64,000 bases of DNA from contig NC_084462.1 in the NCBI RefSeq assembly GCF_027409185.1, positions 182,704,071-182,768,070 of the forward strand, in the 5' to 3' direction. This DNA comes from Cynocephalus volans. Its lineage: Eukaryota > Chordata > Mammalia > Dermoptera > Cynocephalidae. Numbering within the stretch: position 1 is the stretch's first letter; each line of letters begins with the position of its first letter. The translations under genes and the position numbers were made by a program. The notes beneath the pieces were generated by a model. It saw nothing but the letters and a program-made list of their open reading frames with translations, was not told the DNA's origin and did not search any database. Shown one piece after another: positions 36,901-39,900 of the stretch.

Positions 36901-39900
36901 GGTTTAAGAGATTTTTATCTTTTGATAAAAATGAGATTGTTTGGGGAGGAAGGTATGTGCTTTAAACAACAGGTTGCTCTTTTGGTCACTGCTCCATCAT
37001 ACTGTTGTTTCTGCCTCTGCCTGAACCCAAACCCCCTCCCAGCCTGACAGAAATGTTCGCTTACGCAGCTAGCCCTGCCTCAGTTTGTGCCACATCTTCT
37101 ACCTGTCGGCTGAGACATCAGAAGTCGATGTCCATGTCAGCCTCTGGGCACCCCAAGATGATGTTACCTCCAATAGACAGTGAAGGAGATAACTTCAAAG
37201 CTATGTAAGAAAAATGCACATTCCTTGTGAAACTAATGTGTACCCACTGCTTCTTAATTTTGTGCTGTGGATTTTATGGTCCAAGATTTTGTTATACTTG
37301 TCTACAAGGTGTCCTTTCTCCATGTGATTTTAGTTAAGCATATCCTGTCTCATGGTGTCCTTGGTTGTTTGTTTGTGTCTTTGTGCCTTTGCATACTACA
37401 AAGGGTGTTAGAAATTCCCTCTCCTTCCCAGGTTGCTTTCAGCATGTGGAATTTTTTACTTATACCATTGTGTGCTTACAGAACTTTTTAGTTGCCTGGT
37501 CTTCAATTATACCTGCATATCTTTATTTCTTTCATATTGGCACGGTTCTCTGAGTGTAAACAATTTGAGAGGGAAGCAAAGGGGAAAAGCTTGAGTTAGT
37601 TATTCTGTGTCCTGGAATTTCCCTGCATTAATCTTGTCCTTGAAAATATATATGTACTGTTCCCTTAAGCTCTATGAGGCTTTGTCTCATTATATACTAT
37701 TTCTTTGGTACCCTTTCCCATTTAACTTACCTTTTGCTCCTAAGTCCTATAAAACACCCCTTGGACCTGGATGTATTATACCTGATTTTCTCCACTATGT
37801 ATAAAAGGTATATTGTGATTGTAACTTTTTATGTGCCATGTTTGCCACAAAGCTGGGACTTTGTGGACAGAGATGTAAGACGTCTCTTATTTTCTGATCT
37901 CACAGTGCCATTCCTGATCAGAGAGCTCCAGTTGCCTCTACACACAGTGTTAGCAGTGCAACCACCCCAGATAGAATCCGCTTCCCAAGGGGCACTGCCA
38001 GTCGCAGCACTTTCCACGGCCAGCCGCGGGAGCGGCGAACAGCAACCTACAACGGCCCGCCTGCCTCTCCCAGCCTGTCCCATGAAGCCACACCACTGTC
38101 CCAGACTCGAAGCCGAGGCTCCGCTAATCTTTTTAGTAAATTAACTTCAAAACTTACACGGAGGTAAGTGCCACGTGATGCTGGTTGTTTTGGAGGAAAG
38201 ACACAGAGCAAAAGGAGAAGTATCTTCTCTATTGTGTGAAGCTACTGCCAGATGAGCCCATGTTTTTCTGGTTTATGTATAGCTAAATTTTTAATTTAAA
38301 ACCTTTACAATAGAAATGACAGCTCTCAGAATCTTTTTATGACACTAGAAGTTCTTTAGCACTTGGGAGGTGTTTGTTATTCTTTAATTACTACTCCTTT
38401 TGATCACACATCTGTCCACATGGTATGCTCACTGCAGCTTAGCAAACCCCCAGTTCTGGGGTAGGCAGGGGTGGCCACTCCCTAGGACTCGCCAGGGAAG
38501 ACGATGCCTCTGTTTGTAGTCATCCCTGCCACAGAGAGACATTTCCTCTTCTCTCACTTCATTGTCATTAAGGAGCACTAAGTTTCTCCGAGTCTAAATT
38601 TTGAAATTGGTCTCTCTCTTGGTCTCTACGAAGTTATATTAAGAGCAAGGTAGCTTTCTTAAATGTGGTATAGTTTTGGGGATAAAATCTCTGGCTTATT
38701 CTCAAAAATGATAATAATAATAATAATAATAATATCTGGTTGTGTATAAAATGCTTCATGTGTCCAGTAGGCTATCATTTTGGGCCTTGAGAAACTCTGA
38801 GAGTCCCTTGAGATAATTTTATTTCCCCAATCTAGTGTGGAGATTCAAAAGCCTAGAAATATCAGCAGCTACAGGAGGGAAAAGTAAGGAAACCACTTAG
38901 CACCATAAGCAAATAGTGAAAGGCTCCATTAGCCAGGAATGCACCCAGGAAACTCAAGAGCCCCTGCAGTTCCAGGACTCCTCAAAGGAAATTTTTTCCA
39001 GTTAAGCCTAGCTGTGGGTTAGTATATTCGAGATATCCTGCAGGTTCGCCTGTGCAGACCCTCTTGTTTGTTATCTTGCGGAACAACGGTAGGAGTTTTC
39101 TCAGGGTTTAAAATGATCAGTGCCCTCCTCCTCTGTTTCTTGGCACTCCCTGTGGGTCCATCAGACTATTGCTCAGTTTCACGCCATCTGCATTATTTAA
39201 ACTGTAAGCTAAATGTCACTTTTCAGTCTCCTTAATTTCTCCTTATAAAACTTAGATGAGTCATATTAAACAGTCTGATCTTTTTGTTGCTAGGACATCA
39301 AATACCAGATTAGGGAAGGTTTCTGATGTCCATTAGCATTAACTAGAAGTCAGAAGGTTTCAGTCCACCCTCTTCTCATCCCATTCCAGAGTGGGCAGAA
39401 CAGAATGGTCTAAAGGGCCTTGCCAGGTTTGGGGTACATGTTCATGACCAGTGAGAGAGACAGTTCAATCCCAGAAGAGTCTGGTGACCCTCAGAATAGT
39501 TCCTTCCTTCCTTTCAGAGTCATCCCATGGCATGTCCCAGGCTTCCTTATACCCCAACTCCTTCCTCAGGGACTAGGCTGAAATGAAATCTGCCTCTGAA
39601 ACTTGGGTGGTAGAAGAGGGAGCCAGGTACCATCCACCTGGCTGTTTACCTCCCTGTCCTTAATTAAATTCAACAGGCAGGGCAGGCCAGTTAGCTCAGT
39701 TGGTTAGAGCATTGTGTTGATAACACCAAGGTCAAGTGTTCAGATCCCTGTACTGGCCAGCTGCCAAAAATATATATATATCAACAGGTGTTTTCTTCTT
39801 TGAGCCCCAAGCACAGAGGGAATATGCAGCAATCAGTTTTGTCTTAAGTTCCAAAAAGGTAGCCTTATGTCCAGACACTTTGTTCTATAATGGGCTCTTT

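Follow-up and report, generated by a model that had tools for sequence, protein, structure and literature searches.

The DNA analysed here, a stretch of 64,000 nucleotides from the genome of the colugo Cynocephalus volans (the window), spans MARK3 on the + strand from an exon near 873 to the exon that encodes the KA1 domain and ends at 46856. The MARK3 exons of the window were mapped with the human sequence, and Pfam finds a kinase, a UBA and a KA1 domain in MARK3, with no domain at the cassette exon described below. A protein search with the exon-skipping isoform gives Galeopterus variegatus MARK3 in its top rows, with 100% identity to the MARK3 spacer of the window over 66 residues. An earlier note on this DNA had proposed an in-frame cassette exon in the spacer, left out of the common isoforms, and this is borne out. 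The segment in question lies within the 12.2-kb intron between the upstream and downstream exons of Table 1 (a slash marks an exon boundary). It contains no stop in the AG/N frame, which meets a TAA across the donor, and the AG, the 162 open nucleotides, the GTAAGA and the stop just past it are all present as described. Both ends are in phase 2, compatible with the exons that end at 25683 and start at 37906, and inclusion would add 54 residues in frame, with 10 Ser and 5 Met among them (counted by hand). When the two flanking exons are joined directly, the skip product reads NGKENSAIPDQR around the junction. In human numbering, the junction is at residue 529 and the insertion lies 35 residues before T564, which agrees with the proposed position N-terminal of the T564 region.

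Table 1. Features of the MARK3 spacer region and the 3' part of the gene in the window
Feature	Position	Strand	Description and basis
Upstream intron flank, apparently conserved with owl	36993..37042	+	14/17 translated residues identical to Bubo bubo, counted by eye
3' splice site AG of full-length exon	37041..37042	+	segment begins here, after an NGK-type upstream end, in 73/102 rows
Cassette exon	37043..37204	+	162 nt, phase 2-2, 54 codons; sequence and 102 MARK3-type database rows with all or part of it
Possible internal alternative AG	37071..37072	+	in frame; would give a 132-nt exon (37073-37204) starting SPASVC
5' splice site GTAAGA	37205..37210	+	exon side weak (TAT/GTAAGA); sequence, donor score
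Upstream MARK3 exon	25580..25683	+	ends in phase 2
Downstream MARK3 exon	37906..38163	+	starts in phase 2; holds T564 region
27-nt MARK3 exon	42466..42492	+	NMSFRFIKR
45-nt MARK3 exon	43963..44007	+	
Last coding MARK3 exon	46511..46856	+	KA1 domain

Several other features of the window were recorded. Downstream of MARK3, open frames on the - strand at about 61000-63600 represent coding exons, presumably of a creatine-kinase B-like gene. Similar short peptides recur in the open frames 2808-3044 (-), 15330-15677 (-), 33045-33275 (+) and 54227-54706 (-), pointing to a dispersed repeat family that may be a colugo SINE. A TG-rich 14-nt repeat is found at 47327-47355, past the end of the MARK3 coding region (window 46857 onward). 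Two papers link TDP-43 to the 3' ends of MARK3 RNA (PMC12126230; PMC7619245).

The splice signals of the segment are unremarkable. The pyrimidine tract that had been claimed for its acceptor is no more than fair (10/16), a score shared by three other MARK3 acceptors in the window. The donor scores 5.9 bits, lower than 12 of the 14 other MARK3 donors of the window. Its score is reached or exceeded by 23 of the 668 GTs in the host intron, the candidate included. On the + strand of the window, 101 segments of 60-250 nt run from an AG to a GTRAG and are open and in frame, and the candidate falls outside the 12 of these that have a strong pyrimidine tract. Because there are so many comparable segments, local signals prove little, and splice signals plus an open frame were dropped as proof of an exon. 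A QKI-type ACTAAT at 37232 was likewise set aside, since by our estimate the 1.2 kb scanned should contain about 0.6 such motifs anyway.

Much stronger evidence comes from protein databases, which were searched with the inclusion isoform as query and scored solely over the 55 residues at the exon. With a limit of E 10, this search returned 124 proteins. Among the best 120, which were examined, the first 102 (P0002-P0103) are either named MARK3 or annotated as hypothetical or generic kinases in which the exon is present, with a best E of 9.1e-26 and E < 0.001 in 101; the other 18 are MARK1 or MARK1-like by name, one generic kinase from Latimeria among them. The 102 MARK3-type rows come from placental and marsupial mammals, birds, geckos, a turtle, frogs, cartilaginous fish and gar. 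Most of the database rows are predicted models, and counts among the 102 are not independent, as isoforms and close relatives are included. With that reservation, the core motif reads RLRHQKSMS in 69, RLRHPKSMS in 18 and a variant of these in 15, and the exon begins at its full-length start in 73, at VRLRH in 19, at SPASVC in 2 and at other joins in 8, the last of which may be model errors. For 35 rows selected out of the 120, identity to the window over the exon was compared: 16 of the 17 placental rows fall at 80-98%, with Tupaia lower at 69%, three bird rows stand at 81% and Callorhinchus at 69%. At the protein level, a lack of conserved frame or splice sites in other mammals, which would have spoken against the exon, was thus not found.

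These results also correct one element of the earlier note, which had called the exon unreported. RefSeq and UniProt MARK3 models of many vertebrates contain it, so the exon is already in databases in the form of predicted isoforms. The models for Camelus dromedarius (X12), Pan troglodytes (X8 and X17) and Gallus gallus (X18) carry this very exon at the corresponding place in MARK3, with exon-region identities to the window of 96%, 95% and 80%, respectively. They differ from the present case in that they are predictions for other species, and in that 19 of the 102 rows have a shorter exon that starts at VRLRH (the named ones are birds). Among the 120 matches listed, in which clusters hide members, there is no inclusion row for Cynocephalus volans or human.

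Searched at the DNA level, the 2.81-Gb genome gives a single match, the window itself. Another search of the same genome gives a second match to the exon, on another contig (E 0.066), which is an exon of MARK1; a weak match on a further contig, C11 (L004, E 3.3), was dropped, with no MARK-like exon flanking it. The MARK1 spacer exon (SLTEMSAS...) resembles that of MARK3 in its place in the protein, its 2-2 phase and its RHQKSMS core, and it begins AG/CCTTAC where MARK3 has AG/CCTGAC. It differs in being 165 nt long and in being retained in a MARK1 retrocopy. Identical residues are encoded by 26 of 52 aligned codons of the two exons, 18 of these 26 through different codons, arguing for selection on the protein. 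The match of the MARK3 exon to MARK1 proteins is not significant alone when single sequences are used (E 2.7-7.5). A profile comparison of 13 MARK3 with 5 MARK1 exon peptides, small and hand-picked sets, gives a probability of 99.1% and E 5.8e-19.

In MARK2, the acceptor and 14 residues of the corresponding exon are legible. The exon starts TAG/CCTAACCATG in the same phase as in MARK3, with CCTAAC directly after the TAG and an initial codon run similar to that of MARK3. All 14 legible residues equal those of the human MARK2 spacer exon (LTMPGSRAST...), part of the 788-residue form, and the identification as MARK2 rests on this comparison. MARK2 probably shares an ancestral spacer exon with MARK1 and MARK3. 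At the presumed MARK4 locus, tblastn matches the exons on either side of the site, with no exon-like match separating them, and five short motifs are absent from all three frames scanned in the 2.2-kb intron. Because MARK1 carries a matching exon and the MARK2 exon starts in the same phase, the exon is probably older than the vertebrate MARK duplications. The simplest reading would be that MARK1, MARK2 and MARK3 retain a single ancestral exon, which MARK4 either lost or never had.

Database models and processed gene copies both bear on how often the MARK3 exon is used. Comparison of the rows of the two protein searches reveals inclusion and skip models side by side in Pan troglodytes, Symphalangus, Macaca fascicularis and Balaenoptera musculus. 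The search with the skip isoform matched 2749 proteins, of which the best 120 all have the direct skip junction, a count that gives no true ratio of skipping to inclusion because the query favours skip rows. A processed MARK3 pseudogene in the same genome (G000:C27; L047 1413-1745) has the skip junction and lacks the exon; its alignment starts 11 nt into the upstream exon and covers 350 columns, 20 gaps among them, at 77% identity. In contrast, decayed processed copies of MARK1 (L041, C21) and MARK2 (L043, C10) each hold their spacer exon, although the core of the exon in the MARK2 copy is too decayed to compare. With a single copy for each gene the evidence is slight, but it does not depend on gene models. 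Since the MARK3 retrocopy lacks the exon while those of MARK1 and MARK2 keep theirs, the MARK3 exon is optional and apparently skipped more often than included.

The simplest rival explanation is that the segment is one more of the many stretches that happen to be open between an AG and a GT inside a long intron, as their number on the + strand might suggest. The exon-region homology shows that the segment is more than chance, and together with the matching MARK1 exon it refutes this idea, to which we give a vanishingly small probability. A subtler alternative is that the exon is ancient and useful in other vertebrates and has become rarely included in placental mammals, where it drifts and in the colugo has no function. 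The exon-free MARK3 retrocopy, the uniform skipping in the best rows of the biased skip-isoform search and the weak donor would all fit decay. So would the faster change of the exon relative to its two neighbours, seen in many of those 35 rows: its identity to the window is 69% vs 85% and 84% for the neighbours in Callorhinchus, 81% vs 91% and 93% in flamingo, and 87% vs 88% and 93% in Rattus. Furthermore, the central Ser of the core is replaced by Pro (HQKP) in Papio, Macaca fascicularis and Tupaia, and the first part of the Tupaia exon is in a shifted frame. Constraint may thus be relaxed in some mammals. However, the exon is not faster in all rows (Capra, 98% vs 97% and 89%), 9 of the 17 placental rows compared retain 93-98% identity, and the open frame and both splice-site dinucleotides are present in the window, so that decay of the exon in the colugo is unlikely.

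A different question, raised by the suggestion of phosphorylation or 14-3-3 control in the earlier note, is whether a phosphorylation-dependent 14-3-3 site in the exon could inhibit or relocate MARK3. According to a 2008 review (PMC2604893), phosphorylation by aPKC allows 14-3-3 to bind the MARK spacer, and the R-x-x-x-S core of the exon is nearly invariant in the counts given above. The details of the motif argue otherwise. There is no Pro at +2, and the consensus given in PMC7312799 (Leu/Ile/Met at -5, Arg/Lys at -3, Leu at +4) is matched by the Leu at -5, but not by the His at -3 or the Ser at +4. The Pro in place of the central Ser in 3 of the 102 rows counts against an obligatory phosphosite, and no paper was found with the three exon peptide strings searched. 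As judged from the motif, a 14-3-3 site of this kind is doubtful.

The preferred reading, to which we assign a probability of about 0.9 on the basis of sequence comparison, is that the segment is a genuine, ancient and optional coding exon of MARK3, and the MARK3 copy of an ancestral MARK spacer exon. It is unlikely to overlap the cassette exons already published for this gene, to judge from the accessible parts of those papers. These describe MARK3 exon 15 (PMC8070448), exon 16 (PMC8235023) and exons 17-18 (PMC9122611) as cassette exons, exons 15-18 in splicing (PMC9580925) and a change from 729 to 744 residues, a difference of 15 (PMC2764345). The published exons are likewise alternative and in frame, but the parts seen describe no 54-residue exon, and the exon numbers are not matched one by one. 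MARK2 exon 15 of PMC8235023 may or may not be the MARK2 spacer exon, and the text examined of a paper on fish mark3 splicing does not state which exon is concerned. Among the papers listed in a literature search and the passages of them consulted, none could be tied to the 54-residue exon.

The start of the exon may itself be variable. The internal AG listed in Table 1 has a poor pyrimidine tract; the corresponding SPASVC start follows NGK in the two rows mentioned above, which include a Xenopus example. The VRLRH form would start at codons that read ACC TGT in the window. Two models from one species, Bubo bubo, translate the intron ahead of the exon and are probably mis-read. Conservation of an intron flank from birds to mammals is typical of regulated exons, and the split between sharks and mammals dates to more than 400 million years ago. 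Tentatively, one could imagine an ancestral spacer module kept in MARK1, MARK2 and MARK3 for more than 400 million years that turned into a regulated switch in MARK3, where nested 3' splice sites would trim it in steps (full, SPASVC, VRLRH) with the RHQKSMS core kept, under the control of the conserved upstream intron flank.

The likely role of the exon is that of a removable, phosphorylatable extension of the spacer, and for the mechanism that follows we would offer roughly even odds. The spacer is the most variable MARK region, and aPKC or PKD sites there matter for activity, according to PMC7312799. Inclusion would lengthen the spacer by 54 residues and place a conserved basic-serine patch ahead of the T564 region. 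Kinases or phospho-readers could use this patch as an additional site, which would tune the localisation or autoinhibition of MARK3. Compared with the PDB, the exon has no match at E values of 10 or less.

A conserved segment is thus missing from the common isoforms of MARK3, and the inclusion and skip forms offer an easy pair for comparison. Sites in MARK spacers govern the localisation of these polarity and tau kinases. If MARK genes share an optional exon, it would mark a stretch of the spacer that has long been under selection, one not found discussed in the literature search.
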